Shown here: positions 17,101-50,946 of the stretch, one piece after another | How positions within the stretch are numbered: the stretch's first letter is position 1 | Layout: each line of letters begins with the position of its first letter | DNA from: Apostichopus japonicus | Lineage: Eukaryota > Echinodermata > Holothuroidea > Aspidochirotida > Stichopodidae | Length of the DNA stretch: 64,000 nt | NCBI RefSeq assembly: GCF_037975245.1 | Contig: NC_092577.1 | Coordinates: forward strand, 13,633,013 to 13,697,012 | Reading direction: 5' to 3' | Notes under the pieces: model-generated | Told to the model about the DNA's origin: nothing | Databases searched by the model: none | The model's input: the letters and a program-made list of their open reading frames with translations, nothing else | Made by a program: the position numbers and the translations under genes

Positions 17101-20100
17101 GGCTATGCCTCTTATCAAACTGCTGATATAGGACATTGTCTGGTTCACCTATTCATAACATAAATTATATTAGACTGTACTAATAGGTATTAATTTAATA
17201 ACTGGTGACCGATGTTGGTTGCCATGCAAAAATTGCAGAGCATTTTTGGTATCTTAACAGTCCAAACTACATCCTCATAACTGCAAAGATGTATTATTTT
17301 TTTTTTTTTTTCATTTTTTGTAAATTATGCATCTGGCAACAGTAGAATCAATGGTCACCATGTCACTTCAGCTGAAAATGTCTTTGTTTTTCTGTCCTTT
17401 TTTTTTTCCACCGAGGAAAAAACAAAAAGAGAAATTCTAACTGCAGAGAAAACATATTGCTTCAGGTTTCAAGGATAAATACAATGAGGATTATGATAGA
17501 CTCAGTAAAGTTTTGGACCAGATGACATCATATACGGCAGGTCCAAGCTATTTGCACTGTGAAGTACGGGACATTTCAGAGACTTAAATGTGTCTAAAAG
17601 TTATAAAAAATCTATTTTCCAGAAACTTTTTCAGGTTTTCATATATTTTATTGCTGCTACTATATTACAAACTCATGAAGATTTCCTACACTTGCTTTAA
17701 TTAGGTCCCATCTTAATTAATGTACAGTGTGACGTACGGGACAAGAGAATTTTGTGTTTTTTTTTACTAAAGAGCAAAGCTGAAACCCCTCTGAAATTAG
17801 GGTAGTCCCCTTCCTGGAGTAGTGAAAGGTTTAGCCAGTCAAAATAGGTTATAATCAATCGCCTGTTAAGGACAAGAAAGGGGTTTCAACTAACAGTGAA
17901 GAATATGTTTGTCTCTATTATTTGCGACCCCTTTTATGAGGTAGGAAACTTGTGGCATTAGAGTGTTCTAAGATTAGAAATGAAACAGAAATAACCTGCT
18001 TCCTTTTTTATTTTCTTCTCTCCAGCTATTGGGATCCTATATTTGATGAGGAAGTAATGAGCAATAGAGTGGCCTTACAGTTATTATACATACAGGTAAA
18101 AATAGTCCCACTCCCTGCAGGAATAATAGAGTGGCCTTACAGATATAAAACATACAGGTAAAAATAGTCCCACTCCCCGCAGGAAAAATAGAGTGGCCTT
18201 ACAGCTATTATACATAGATGTAGAAATAGTCCCACTCCTTGCAGGAACAATAAAGTGGCCTTACAGCTATTATACATACAGGTAAAAATAGTCCCACTCC
18301 CTGCAGGAATAATAGAGTGGCCTTACAGATATAAAACATACAGGTAAAAATAGTCCCACTCCCCGCAGGAAAAATAGAGTGGCCTTACAGCTATTATACA
18401 TAGATGTAGAAATAGTCCCACTCCCTGCAGGAACAGTAGAGTGGCCTTACAGCTATTATACATACATGTAAAAATAGTCCCACTCCCTGCAGGAACAGTA
18501 GAGTGGCCTTACAGCTATTATACATAGATGTAGAAATAGTATCACTCCTTGCAGGAATTATAGAGTGGCCTACAGCTATAAAACATACAGGTAAAAATAG
18601 TCCCACTCCCTGCAGGAACAGAGTGGCCTTACAGCTATTATACATACAGGTAACAATAGTCCCACTCGCTGCAGGAACAATAGAGTGGCCTTACAGCTAT
18701 TATACATACAGGTAAAAATAGTCCCACTCCCTGCAGGAACAGTAGAGTGGCCTTACAGCTATTATACATACAGGTAAAAATAGTCCCACTCCCTGCAGGA
18801 ATAATAGAGTGGCCTTACAGCTATAAAACATACAGGTAAAAATAGTCTTACTCCCTGCAGGAACAGTAGAGTGGCCTTACAGCTATTATACATAGATGTA
18901 GAAATAGTCCCACTCCCTGCAGGAACAGTAGAGTGGCCTTACAGCTATTATACATACAGGTAAAAATAGTCCCACTCCCTGCAGGAACAGTAGAGTGGCC
19001 TTACAGCTATTATACATAGATGTAGAAATAGTATCACTCCTTGCAGGAATTATAGAGTGGCCTACAGCTATAAAACATACAGGTAAAAATAGTCCCACTC
19101 CCTGCAGGAACAGAGTGGCCTTACAGCTATTATACATACAGGTAACAATAGTCCCACTCGCTGCAGGAACAATAGAGTGGCCTTACAGCTATTATACATA
19201 CAGGTAAAAATAGTCCCACTCCCTGCAGGAACAGTAGAGTGGCCTTACAGCTATTATACATACAGGTAAAAATAGTCCCACTCTCTGCAGGAACAGTAGA
19301 GTGGCCTTACAGCTATTATACATAGATGTAGAAATAGTATCACTCCTTGCAGGAATTATAGAGTGGCCTACAGCTATAAAACATACAGGTAAAGATAGTC
19401 CCACTCCCTGCAGGAACAGTAGAGTGGTGGTACAGCTATTATACTGTACATACAGGTAAAAATAGTCCCACTCCCTGCAGGAATTATAGAGTGGCCTATA
19501 GCTATAAAACGTACCGGTACAAAATAGTCCCACTCCCCGCAGGAACAGTAGAGTGGCCTTACAGCTATTATACATACAGGTAAAAATAGTCCCACTCTCT
19601 GCAGGAACAGTAGAGTGGCCCTACAGCTATCATACATACAGGTAAAGATAGTCCCACTCCCTGCAGGAACAGTAGAGTGGTGGTACAGCTATTATACTGT
19701 ACATACAGGTAAAAATAGTCCCACTCCCTGCAGGAATAAAGTATTGGATACTGCAAAATCATTTAAAAGCAAAGTCAGGAATCAGAAATATACTCTATTC
19801 AGGTAGAGGTGGTAATAGGGTCAGAAATATACCTCTATTCAGGTAGAGGTAGTACTGGGGTCAGATATATACCTCTGTTCTGCAAGAAATGTCAGCTTGC
19901 CCTGTCGTCGCTGCTTTCAAATCCTTCCCTCAGATGTTTTCTTTTCTTTTAATTTTTACTGTTTTTCTTTTGTTAACTTCCAGACGGTGCAAGAAGTGCA
20001 ACAAGGTTGGTTGTCTGGTACCAAGGAACAGTTTAAGAGGCTAGATGCTCTGAGGACCAAAAATTCCAGGCGAGAGGTAAGTATAATTTCTAAATGGTAG

Positions 20101-23100
20101 CATAAAACCAAGCATTCCTTTATAAGACTGGTTTTAGTTGCGTAAAACTTGCCTACACAATTGTATTATCATTTGCACATTTACTATCCTTCTTTAGTTA
20201 CTGTTTTTTGTTTGTGGAATCGACTCGATACGTCTGTAACGTGGTTACTTACTCACAAAATGCTTCCTGAAAACTGTAGTATTCCTAATTTTGTTGTAAC
20301 TTGGTAGTTATTAATTATCAAGCCACGTGATATTCAAACATATTTAGATACACCTCAGGGGTTAATACAAACCTTTATTGATCTCATACGTAACTAATTT
20401 ATTTTCCATTTATTACATTAGAGAAAAGTTTGTGTCCCACAAAAATTTTATGAATATTTCTATTGCATTGTAACGTTTGAAATTGATGCCTATCTTCATG
20501 TTCCCTGGTGCCATTCAGGTGGACCCAGTTTGCTCATTGCATTGTTAAAAAATTCCCCTTTTTTATTGTTTTTTTGTGTTTTTTTGTCTCTTTTTACAAA
20601 ATATTTCCTCTTGTCAGTATTTACAATTTGCAAAGACAATGAAGTATTACGGCCACATCATATTCAAGCCTTGCATAGTGGATTACCCGGAGCCGGACAC
20701 CAAAGTCACAATATCAGCAGGAAACAAAGAACTTTACTTCAGAGTCAAGGAAGAGGGCAAGGACAAGGAGGGTGTCTTCCGAATCACGAGAATACGATGC
20801 TGGAGGATTTCACTGCTGGTAAAGGGCTAATCATTCTATTATATAACCTGTGGTGAATCTCACTGTGTAGGCCTGGTGGGGGGCGGAGCCTAAGGCCTTA
20901 AGGGTACACACTTTTACACACTCACTATACCTAGATTGAGCTATATGCAGGGTAGGCCTGGTGGTATGGCCAAGCCTAAGGCCTTAAGGGTACACATCTA
21001 TACACACTCACTATACCTAGATTGAGCTATGTGCAGGGTAGGCCTGGTGGCATGGCCGAGCCTAAGGCCTCATGTTACTAGCTATGTATTGAGCTATTAA
21101 AACGATTTAAGAATAAACGCTCGCAAACCTTCATTGGCACTGCAGTTAATAGCTATAGGGCGAAGGTCGTTCATACAAGAGATGACAGAACATTTTGGCA
21201 CTGGGATAATACTGGATTGTTTCCATAGATGAGGCACCTCCCCAGTTTTGAAGGACAAATTGTAAATTACAGTAAAAATGTGAGCCAGCTCTATTGTACA
21301 ATACTTCAAAACCTTAGGTTGGACATTATCGGGTCCAGCGGCCTTAGATGGGGTTAACCTGGAGAACTGCTGTCGAACGTCCCCCTCGGACACCACTAAG
21401 TCACAAGTAAAATTTGTCAATAAGGTTTGAAGCTTACTATATTCATCTGTAAAATCTTGCTGGTCAAAACGGTTATAAAAGTGATTCAAATCATTGGCAT
21501 AGTCAGGGCTCATTTCTGGTAAGTGGCGAGAACTAGAGCAAGTCCAGGGTTGCAGCTTTGCGGGTGGCACACTTGACTTGTTGATAATAATGCACACTGC
21601 TTCGTCTGAGATTACAATGGTTAAAATCACCGTTGATTATAGTGAGAGCATCCGGCGCGGAGGTTTCAAATTTATCAATAATGTCAATGAGTTCCATTGC
21701 CGCTGATTTGGCAACATTGCGATGTGGAACATAGACAGTGAAAACTCCCGTGGCAAGTAATTAGGGCGACATGTGACAGTTAAAATCTCGATATTGGGGG
21801 AACATGAGTGACGTTTAATATGGGAATTATTCGGGTGGCACCAGTTCTGATTCACGTATATGCACACCCCACCCCCTTTTCCTTTCCCGGATTGAGTTGT
21901 CCGATCCCCTCTTAATAGTGTAAATCCTTCTATCGAGGCATGGGAGTCAGTATGGTGTTCGGTAAGCCAGGTCTCGGTGAATGATAGTATACTTGGATTC
22001 CGAAATTCCTGCAGAAATTTGCAGTTAGCGGAGATCTCATCAATTTTATTAGTTATTGATTGTATGTTACCCATTATGATAGATGGTAGGTAGGGTTTGT
22101 GATTCAATCGCCTGTTCCTCTTCCTCACACCTCCTGCCTTGCCCCGTTTCCGTTTTCGAATTTCCTTGGGAATGCCATTGTCAATGAACAGACGTTGTAA
22201 CTCACTATGTATAGGCTGGCTGCGTAGTGCGTAGAGCTCGGCTGTAGAATATCTCTTGTCGGCGGTCGACTGAAAATCACTGATTTCTCCAAAACAAAGA
22301 GATAATGTCCCAAGAAATACGACCAATATGGTGATCCAGACGATTGGCTTCATCTTGTATGTATGAAAGTAGACGATTATACAAAACGAACATTAAAATG
22401 GACGAAAAACTGGAGAGAACTAGTGCGAGTGTGTCGCCACTAGAGCAGCGCCACCAGATTCCAATCACACACTCACTATACCTAGATTGAGCTATGTGCA
22501 GGGTAGGCCTGTTGGCATGGCCGAGCCTAAGGCCTCAAGGGTACACATCTATACACACTCACTATACCTAGATTGAGCTATGTGCAGGGTAGGCCTGTTG
22601 GCATGGCGGAGCCTAAGGCCTCAAGGGTACACATCTATAGACACTCACTATACCTAGATTGAGCTATGTGCAGGGTAGGCCTGGTTGGCTGTTTTATCAA
22701 TCACCAGGGGAGTCTTATGTTTGGGTAATGTTACGGCCTTAAAAATTGATAGGTCATGACTAGCGTAGGGAAATCACAATATGGGTCTCCACGGAAACAG
22801 TTTGTGAAAGCAGGGCCATAGATCGTCTGCACCTCTAGTTACTTTCATTATCTTTTATTACCCCCTCACAGGGAGAAACCAACCCAACAGGTGACCATAA
22901 GAGTGACAGCCAATTACAACTGTCCTTTGAATATTTAGTATCCAAGAGTAAGCTGCAGTGGATTAATGTTGTGACTGAGGAAGCGATACTGATGAGCCTG
23001 ACCTTGCAGAGTATGGTAGAAGAGCTCCTATTGGTCAAACGAGGTGGGAAGGTCAAACGGGTAAGGCTCTCTTTAAACCTCAACTTGTTGTGCAGTGTTT

Positions 23101-26100
23101 GTGATGGATGAGTATAATTGGAGGAGTAATGGCAGATAACAGGGTGGCCAGGTGTGTTGGGAAGAGAAAAGATAGTATACAGGTGGCCAGGTATGATGGG
23201 AAGAGAAAAGATGGTATACAGGTGGCCAGATATCATGGGAAGAGAATAGATAGTGTACATGTGGCCAGATATCATGGGAAGAGAATAGATAGTGTGCAGG
23301 TGGCCAGATATCATCTGAAGAGAATAGATAGTGTGCAGGTGGCCAGGTATCATGGGAAGAGGAAAGATAGTATACAGGTGGCCAAGTGTGGAGAGAGAGG
23401 ATAATATAAAACAGGTGTCATTGGGAGAGTAAGGATATCATTCAGTTGGCCATGTATCATGGGAAGAAAAGGATAATAAACAGGTGGCCAGATATCATGG
23501 GCAGAGTAGGATAATATACAGGTGGCCAGGTGTCATGCGAAGAGTAAGGATAATATACAGGTTGGCAGGTTTCATGGGAAGAGTGTCGATAGTATACAGG
23601 TGGCCATGTATCTTAGGAAGAGTAAGAATAAATATGCAGGTATCATGGTAAGAGTAAGGAAAAATAAACAGGTGTCATGGGAAGAGTAAGGATATTATAC
23701 ACGTGGCCAGGTTTCATGGGAAGTTAAACAATAGTATACAGGTGGCTAAGAATCGATTTATTCACTAAAAATTTACTTTGTTTTTTTCTCTCTTTCAAGT
23801 TTCATTGCTTTTAACATGTTTTTAATACTAATGTGAAACATAAAGCCAATGGAAATGTTGAGAATTGATAACTTCATATTCATTTTCATTTGATGAAGCT
23901 CTTTAAGAGAGTGTCTGTAACCTGTGCGAGGAAGAGGGCACCCTTCAAGAAATATTACCAGATAGTAATGAACGTACTCAGTCTCCTTCGATCTCCCAAT
24001 ATGTTTTGGCCATATTCGCAACATTTGTGACATTATTAGACGGAATATGTTCTTGGCTGATGCAGTATTATTGATAGGGGAAAGGGGGAGGGGATGTTGT
24101 GCCCCCCCTCCCACCACATCCACCCAGTACAGTATTGTTAAAACTTCAAAAGTGCTCCTTTTCATGAATTGCAAGAGCTCCTTTTTGTTTATGAAAGTGC
24201 AATTTTCCATATTTGTAAAGTAAAAGTACCCTGTGTTTCTTTTAAAAAGTGCCATTTTGACAAAAAATTAATTTCTTGAAAATTTGAAAGAAATATGGTG
24301 TTAAAACTGTGCCATTATGTTGAAGAACATTCAAATTTGTGCTGCAGAATGTATGGAGGATTGATTCTGTTGGCAAGGTCTGAGGGGCTTTTGTGGTCTT
24401 TCCCCTCAAATCAGAGTGATTTGTTCCACTGACCCTCAACGTTTCCCCCACCCCCCTTTCCCTCTCTTTCCCTTACCAAAACCATCATCCTGGTGTTAAG
24501 ACTGTTTCAATAGGGATCTGCTTCAGTATAAACCAATGCAAAAAATAATATATCAGGGTATAAGGGATTCCTACATGCTTGTTTAAATTAATAAGTGTGA
24601 AATGGTATGTTTATGTAAAGTAGCTAATAGCTTAGGAAAATGTCCTAAATTTCCAAGTTATTTTTCTGATGTTCAGAGACTTTGCTTGTGAAACTGTTCT
24701 GCATCAAGATGACAAAAAAATTAAAATAAGTTTGAAGCCAAACAAGAGACACAGTTGTATAACATTTGTTGGTATCATAATAATAATAATTAAAAATAAT
24801 AATGAACAGTTCTTATATAGCGCAACTTACAATAAAGTCTTGCCACGCTGTACTTAACCCTGGTCATTGTTAACTTGTTACACCTACACACCAAAGTGTG
24901 TACAATTCAAACAATCTCTCCTGGGGAACCACAGTGCACCACAACCATGTGTCCCCCAGGGACACTTCCCATAGGGTGCAGCCACTAACCGGCGCATGCA
25001 ACTTTATTTACAAGTCGCCTCGCAAGTCCCCATTTATACACCTGGGTGAAGAGAGGCAATTGAGATAAAGCACCTTGCCCAAGGACACAACGCAATGATC
25101 TGGCCAGGGTTCGAACCTGTAATCTTTAGATCACAAGTCCACTGCCTTAACCACTTGACCACATTCTCTTTGTTTTCTAAGCTGACAAGTACTCCTCCAG
25201 TAGTGTTATTTTCCAGCAGTTTTATAACTTATTTCTCCAAAGGGACTGGTACCAGGAGTTTCGGATTCATGCCTCTGTTCTCGACATAAACGAATCTTTA
25301 CGACACCTGTCATATTGCTGATATAAACTAAAAGTTAATTTTTCCTTATCCCTCTACCCTTCACATCCCTGGCCTCTTAAGAATAAATAATTCTCTTTCC
25401 CTCAATAGTATAACCTTGTCCTCTCTATTTTACTGTATGGTTGAATCATATGCATCATAACCCAAGCAGTTTATTGTTCTCTTCATCAACATTGATCAAG
25501 TGTTTTTGATGGCCGTGATTACATATACACTTGTATTAAAGCTGGCCATGGTATTGTTAACTTGACACCTCTGGATCTGAATGGATGGACCGGGCTGTTC
25601 TGGTTGCACCCGATATTTATGAGGAAACTGTCATGTGCTGATGTAATTGGCAATGTGACCTTGCATTCTGACCTTCCTTTTTCATAATACATGTGCATGT
25701 TAACCTCGTCAGCTGTATGAGACCAGCCGATTCTCATGCTGCTAGTATACAATACTATTGTACTGCAACATTAACAAAAAAGGATTAAAAGTATAAATTG
25801 TTTTCATAATATATATCATTGTACCATGTTATATTATATACAACAGTATTATTACGGATGTTATATATTATTATGATACAATATTATTGTAATATACTAT
25901 GATGAATCGAGTTATACTAAGTTTTTCCCTTTTAAGTTATCATTAAAAAAGGGCACTTATAAATTGATGAAGATGTGCATTTTTGAGACTTTTAATCAAG
26001 CCTGGATGAGAATTGTCCCCCTCCCCCCCCCCCATGTCTCTACCTGCCATGTTTTAACCATTAAAGGATTCGAAATCAGGAAAGTAGACTTTATACTAAT

Positions 26101-50816: not shown

Positions 50817-50946
<130 letters not shown>

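Follow-up and report, generated by a model that had tools for sequence, protein, structure and literature searches.

The window analysed here, a 64,000-nucleotide stretch of the genome of the holothurian Apostichopus japonicus, contains a gene for sorting nexin-17 (SNX17) whose sixth coding exon runs directly into a long tandem array (Table 1). Using tblastn with human SNX17 together with frame-consistent splice sites, we placed nine coding exons that form a single open frame when joined. The joined product contains a PX domain and SNX17-type FERM F1 and F2 lobes, matches the Pfam family SNX17_FERM_C (1.6e-34) and has sorting nexin-17 as its best PDB match (E 1.4e-82). No coding exons beyond the ninth were found by tblastn and a forward-strand motif search, and the gene models of this copy and of the second copy described below are partial. 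The protein runs through the exon 6/7 junction as it does in human SNX17, with the array lying inside the single intron between these exons.

Table 1 Features of the SNX17 exon 6/intron 6 region, in window positions
Feature	Position	Strand	Evidence or score
SNX17 coding exon 6 (sixth coding exon), 70 nt	18026..18095	+	tblastn, splice sites, Pfam and PDB matches of the joined product
Intron 6, 1,888 nt, mostly array	18096..19983	+	
Authentic exon 6 donor CAG/GTAAAA, GT at 18096	18096..18101	+	7.21 bits
62-bp minisatellite, 27 units	18062..19736	+	TRF, manual split
26 decoy units: 18 with an AG/GTAA donor, 8 without (units 3, 6, 7, 8, 14, 16, 21, 24)	18128..19736	+	
Higher-order repeat, 492 bp (8 units)	18376..19235	+	TRF, manual split, unit comparison
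Intron-side array edge GGAATAAAG	19733..19741	+	read from sequence
SNX17 coding exon 7, acceptor partner of the exon 6 donor	19984..20076	+	tblastn and splice sites

The array had been described as 27 copies of a 62-bp unit, and both TRF (period 62, 27.0 copies, score 2509) and a manual split bear this out, with 22 of the 26 unit spacings exactly 62 and the remainder 58, 58, 61 and 67. At 62 bp × 27 it is of minisatellite size (tandem units of roughly 10–100 bp in many copies). Each unit takes in the end of the exon, the donor and then a C/T-rich stretch ending in GCAG, so every new unit brings with it a donor and an acceptor-like site. The original prediction also placed the start of the array inside exon 6; indeed, unit 1 consists of the last 33 nt of that exon, encoding NRVALQLLYIQ, followed by the exon 6 donor. 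The human SNX17 of the PDB match reads NRVGLNLLYAQ at this point, and this conservation marks the exon as the ancestral source and the array as derived. Aligning the exon 6 tail with the unit gave 47 columns, two mismatches and a score of 84, which none of 300 dinucleotide shuffles reached (highest 26), in agreement with exon 6 having been proposed as the source.

For three other minisatellites, located in introns of the gene, an origin from neighbouring exons was tested and rejected, with 107, 83 and 296 of 300 shuffles scoring as high. By score, neither of two repeats carrying donor-like motifs is exon-derived: a 40-bp, 2.5-copy repeat with CAG/GTAGAG that follows the array in intron 6 (window 19782–19880), and a 39-bp, 16-copy minisatellite after exon 9 (window 23143–23746), which has CAG/GT in many units and is also present in the other gene copy.

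We next consider where else the unit occurs. A 60-base unit pattern allowing at most three mismatches, a threshold that misses more diverged units, matched the genome 31 times; all matches lay on contig C17, in two clusters that both coincide with SNX17, and there were none on the reverse strand or in a reversed-pattern control. With 31 of 31 such matches within two SNX17 loci, we ruled out a dispersed element. It had been reasoned beforehand that finding the repeat elsewhere would count against the exon as its source. A second site does exist, but it lies 407 kb upstream in another copy of SNX17, again at exon 6, which leaves the exon-source reading unhurt. This second array has 24 complete units and one truncated unit, compared with 27 units in the window.

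Searching the genome with the exon 8 peptide returned these two copies only. Both are open across all nine exons, with differences between them at 32 of 1,164 nt and, in the protein, at 6 of 388 residues. Their dN of 0.0077 and dS of 0.110 give a dN/dS of about 0.07, which indicates that both array-bearing genes stayed under constraint; the host gene appears to be still functional despite the array. Of the 13,343 sites that align well in introns 1–8, 580 carry substitutions (4.3%; 2.3–9.6% by intron, the highest value coming from intron 6, which is represented by 73 sites at its 3′ end). The neighbourhood is duplicated as well, with window positions 1–50873 corresponding to G000:C17:13222292-13274049, about 410 kb upstream, at about 80–96% identity per collinear BLAST piece. 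Intron 8 is longer in the window (2,053 nt) than in the other copy (589 nt). The additional sequence (window 20867–22689) interrupts an 86-bp minisatellite and contains two minus-strand open reading frames that by eye resemble parts of a non-LTR retrotransposon, with no Pfam family found for them.

The second copy with its array is possibly, though doubtfully, an unpurged second haplotype, the two arrays then being alleles of a single variable-number repeat, and such an arrangement would be compatible with an origin of the array from exon 6. An intron divergence of 4.3% overall, and of 2.3% in one intron, could fit a very diverse marine animal, and the presence of only two copies in the exon 8 search points the same way. 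Against this, a dS of 0.11 is high for alleles, the left flank of the window is present twice at the other SNX17 locus, and among the collinear pieces listed none above 200 bits extends past window position 50,873 (200 kb compared). Genes for Rpb2-type RNA polymerase subunits, of which three groups were found, also speak against it: the groups on contigs C5 and C18 lie at one place each and the group on C16 forms four clusters (G000:C16:25457559-27247446), too many for two haplotypes, and the C16 clusters indicate that local segmental duplication occurs in this assembly.

That the array is an assembly artefact is extremely improbable. Near-identical repeats are prone to collapse or expansion, and the count of 27 is therefore approximate, but the differences among units are ordered, the second locus has the array as well, with a shared order of first units, and no N occurs in the window or the flanks examined. 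Elsewhere in the assembly, COX1 pieces with in-frame TGA occur on G000:C29:14745-31219 in addition to the 16-kb contig C35, perhaps a nuclear or mis-assembled mitochondrial copy. Mitochondrial COX1 translates well with genetic code 9, AAA standing for Asn in the conserved STNHKDIG stretch, as expected of an echinoderm.

Comparing the two arrays unit by unit, leaving aside the truncated unit 25 of the other copy, we found that window units 1, 2 and 3 differ from other-copy units 2, 3 and 4 at 2, 4 and 1 positions, respectively. Two rare types that stand next to each other in the window, ATATAAAAC followed by AGATGTAG with CCTTG, are each present a single time in the other copy, and their order is the same. 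Support from a permutation test of shared unit order is moderate (p 0.009), and several other consensus-like triplets match equally well or better because consensus-like units resemble one another anywhere. The per-site table of this comparison covered 22 units of each array, all of them 62 nt long and beyond unit 1. Exon 6 of both copies has a T within TTATTATAC, whereas most units of both arrays have C; the T occurs in 1 of the 27 window units, and the second array, with its 24 complete units, has it in units 1, 2 and 20. This difference being common to both copies, the two types separated before the copies did and, taken with the shared order of the first units, it indicates that the array is older than the split between the copies. 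The idea that the array has evolved as a pool separate from the exon accordingly holds for the most part at this site, but the separation is incomplete: unit 2 of the other copy is of the exon type, which suggests one further copying of such a unit in that array. A related expectation, that the copies keep CTATTATAC, holds for 18 of the 26 non-exonic window units and not for all. Within the window, the array later grew by block duplication: units 6–11 (18376–18743) and units 14–19 (18868–19235) differ at one base in total, and this block duplication is therefore recent.

The edges of the array offer a possible route to its first duplication. The intron-side edge GGAATAAAG and the exon-side sequence GCAATAGAG (18061–18069) are alike at seven of nine positions and could represent the founding microhomology, a proposal read from the array edges. 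The second array breaks off within unit 25 at its 3′ edge, and so the proposal cannot be checked there. We propose that the exon 6/intron 6 boundary was tandemly duplicated between these two similar sequences, the exonic GCAATAGAG and the intronic GGAATAAAG, which lie 62 bp apart, and that the duplicated boundary would then have grown into a minisatellite by slippage or unequal exchange.

To gauge how far the units imitate the real splice site, we scored donors with a donor matrix and by pairing with the U1 5′ end. The exon 6 donor ranks sixth among the gene's nine donors by matrix and fourth by U1 pairing energy. The prediction of many decoy donors is supported: 18 of the 26 window decoys retain a donor, 16 scoring at least 7.21 bits and two 6.94, and eight are broken. 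Of the 18 intact decoys, 14 have the same 11-nt donor sequence, and the preceding 30-odd nucleotides are much alike. The other copy retains the donor in 21 of its 23 complete decoy units. By comparison, plus-strand donors this strong occur at 1.16 per kb in the 200 kb around the other copy.

Use of any decoy would be unproductive. Reading past exon 6, the first in-frame stop starts 63 nt on in both copies, so every decoy donor beyond the first is unproductive; stops were modelled singly for the nearest five decoy donors per copy, the rest following from the position of this stop. The first decoy donor (+62) shifts the frame, and a stop follows about 41 codons on in the window and about 31 in the copy. 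As had been predicted for pseudo-exon inclusion, all modelled pseudo-exons, each taken as the stretch between an acceptor-like site and the first intact donor after it, carry a stop (26 of 26 in the window and 22 of 22 in the other copy; the last acceptor-like site of each array has no downstream donor), and their inclusion would introduce a premature stop in the manner of a poison exon. The further claim that each unit is a pseudo-exon is not borne out in that form. Units with an intact donor give pseudo-exons of 37 nt, and loss of the donor makes them longer, for example 99 or 222 nt; the intron between neighbouring units would be 25 nt, shorter than metazoan splicing is known to handle. Given these 25-nt introns, the eight of 26 units without a donor and acceptor-like sites that are predicted to be buried, the likelier hazard is a downstream alternative donor rather than a 37-nt exon.

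The retention of donors in 18 of 26 decoys could alternatively reflect a role. One such role would be a regulated splicing switch, in which splicing turns to decoy donors or pseudo-exons with a fixed frequency, yielding unproductive SNX17 mRNA, and repeat number tunes the protein level. We regard this as unlikely: stops in all modelled outcomes, decoy donors equal to the real one and the presence of the array in both SNX17 copies are what it would predict, but the donor is lost in eight of 26 window decoys, the acceptor-like sites are predicted to be buried and the array interiors differ between the copies. Quite unlikely, too, is a length-tunable rheostat, in which 18 U1-pairable decoy donors following a middling real donor would set the share of productive SNX17 splicing; if it operated, repeat number would change SNX17 dose between alleles or copies. 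We also considered whether U1 sites guard against premature polyadenylation, for which AATAAA counts gave no support: AATAAA occurs twice in intron 6 of the window, neither AATAAA nor ATTAAA occurs in intron 6 of the other copy, and the AATAAA background is 1.0 per kb.

The burial of acceptor-like sites comes from RNA folding predictions. Four two-unit stretches that we selected all have more stable folds than their shuffles (z −3.03, −3.56, −3.03 and −2.74, the first and third being identical in sequence), and the mean fold energy of 124-nt array stretches is −30.4 kcal/mol, compared with −23.2 and −16.9 kcal/mol in two other intron stretches. The 27 acceptor-like 8-mers have unpaired probabilities of 0–0.0108, compared with 0.0027–0.1828 for the gene's eight acceptors, the ranges overlapping at the low end. 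The acceptor-like sites are thus predicted to be more buried than the gene's own acceptors, and the donors are not. The better folding of the array and the burial of its acceptor-like sites would be expected if selection had retained the units for a common RNA hairpin concealing splice-like sites, a reading that we nevertheless judge very unlikely. For exon 6 together with its donor the predicted fold is poorer than in shuffles (z +1.46), and the inverted repeat is already present in unit 1, so copying explains the hairpin in the other units. Nor was there covariation of hairpin pairs beyond shuffles in an alignment of 44 of the 52 units (30 distinct; window units 9, 17, 22, 23, 24 and 27 and copy units 2 and 25 excluded), in which 96.9% of cells were paired compared with 96.7% after shuffling and one cell had changed on both sides; on this ground we rejected the hairpin as a selected structure. 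The predicted hiding of acceptors may instead be an accident of the founding sequence.

A hairpin was also ruled out as the reason for the first donor to win, the predicted accessibility of this donor and the decoys being alike: 0.067 for exon 6 and a median of 0.092 for the decoys, 0.092 and 0.134, and 0.061 and 0.062 at three span settings (13 of the 18 decoys). As modelled, folding would give no account of how the real donor wins.

Together, these results favour a slippage-born minisatellite derived from the SNX17 exon 6/intron 6 boundary, tolerated since exon definition probably favours the first donor, and we consider this account probable. Under exon definition, the spliceosome would most probably pair the first donor with the acceptor of exon 6. 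Donor 1 alone is directly preceded by the exon 6 acceptor and by an upstream 37 nt of real exon containing the purine-rich GATGAGGAAG, which by analogy we guess to be an enhancer. Mistaken use of a decoy would give a frameshift or stop and probably a decayed mRNA, at a modest cost, and the array may therefore be close to neutral.

Arrays of this general kind are known. A splice-donor minisatellite in IFI6 reportedly has a 12-bp unit that adds whole codons and yields in-frame isoforms. It resembles the SNX17 array as a minisatellite supplying multiple donors, 18 of 26 decoys here keeping AG/GTAA, but the SNX17 unit is 62 bp long, not a multiple of three (remainder 2), carries an acceptor-like site too and leads to stops when a decoy is used. 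Introns can also be gained when a segment bearing AGGT is tandemly duplicated (the Rogers model; ATP2A1, a fission-yeast 24-bp tandem and potato RdRp; PMC4974935). There, as in SNX17, tandem copies of an AG/GT segment supply donor and acceptor sites; in SNX17, however, an existing intron was lengthened and the protein is unchanged, with no sign of a new intron. Internal tandem repeats of human genes in segmental duplications average 30-bp units repeated four times and alter gene structure (PMC2812944). Among them, too, are minisatellites that differ from one duplicated gene copy to another, in some cases at an exon–intron boundary, whereas the SNX17 array comprises 27 units of 62 bp, seen here in genomic DNA. 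No paper combining SNX17 and a minisatellite was found in the literature searched. As far as these searches show, the kind is known, and what is new is that a conserved gene carries a unit which is long, out of frame and equipped with both a donor and an acceptor-like site.

The locus amounts to a natural experiment on donor choice, with one real donor followed by 18 decoys in a constrained gene and a built-in comparison between two SNX17 copies with 18 and 21 decoys. If donor 1 alone is used, as we infer, position and upstream exon context, not donor sequence, must decide. The array is also a case in which the end of a coding exon gave rise to a minisatellite, and this may be a stage on the way to new exons or introns.
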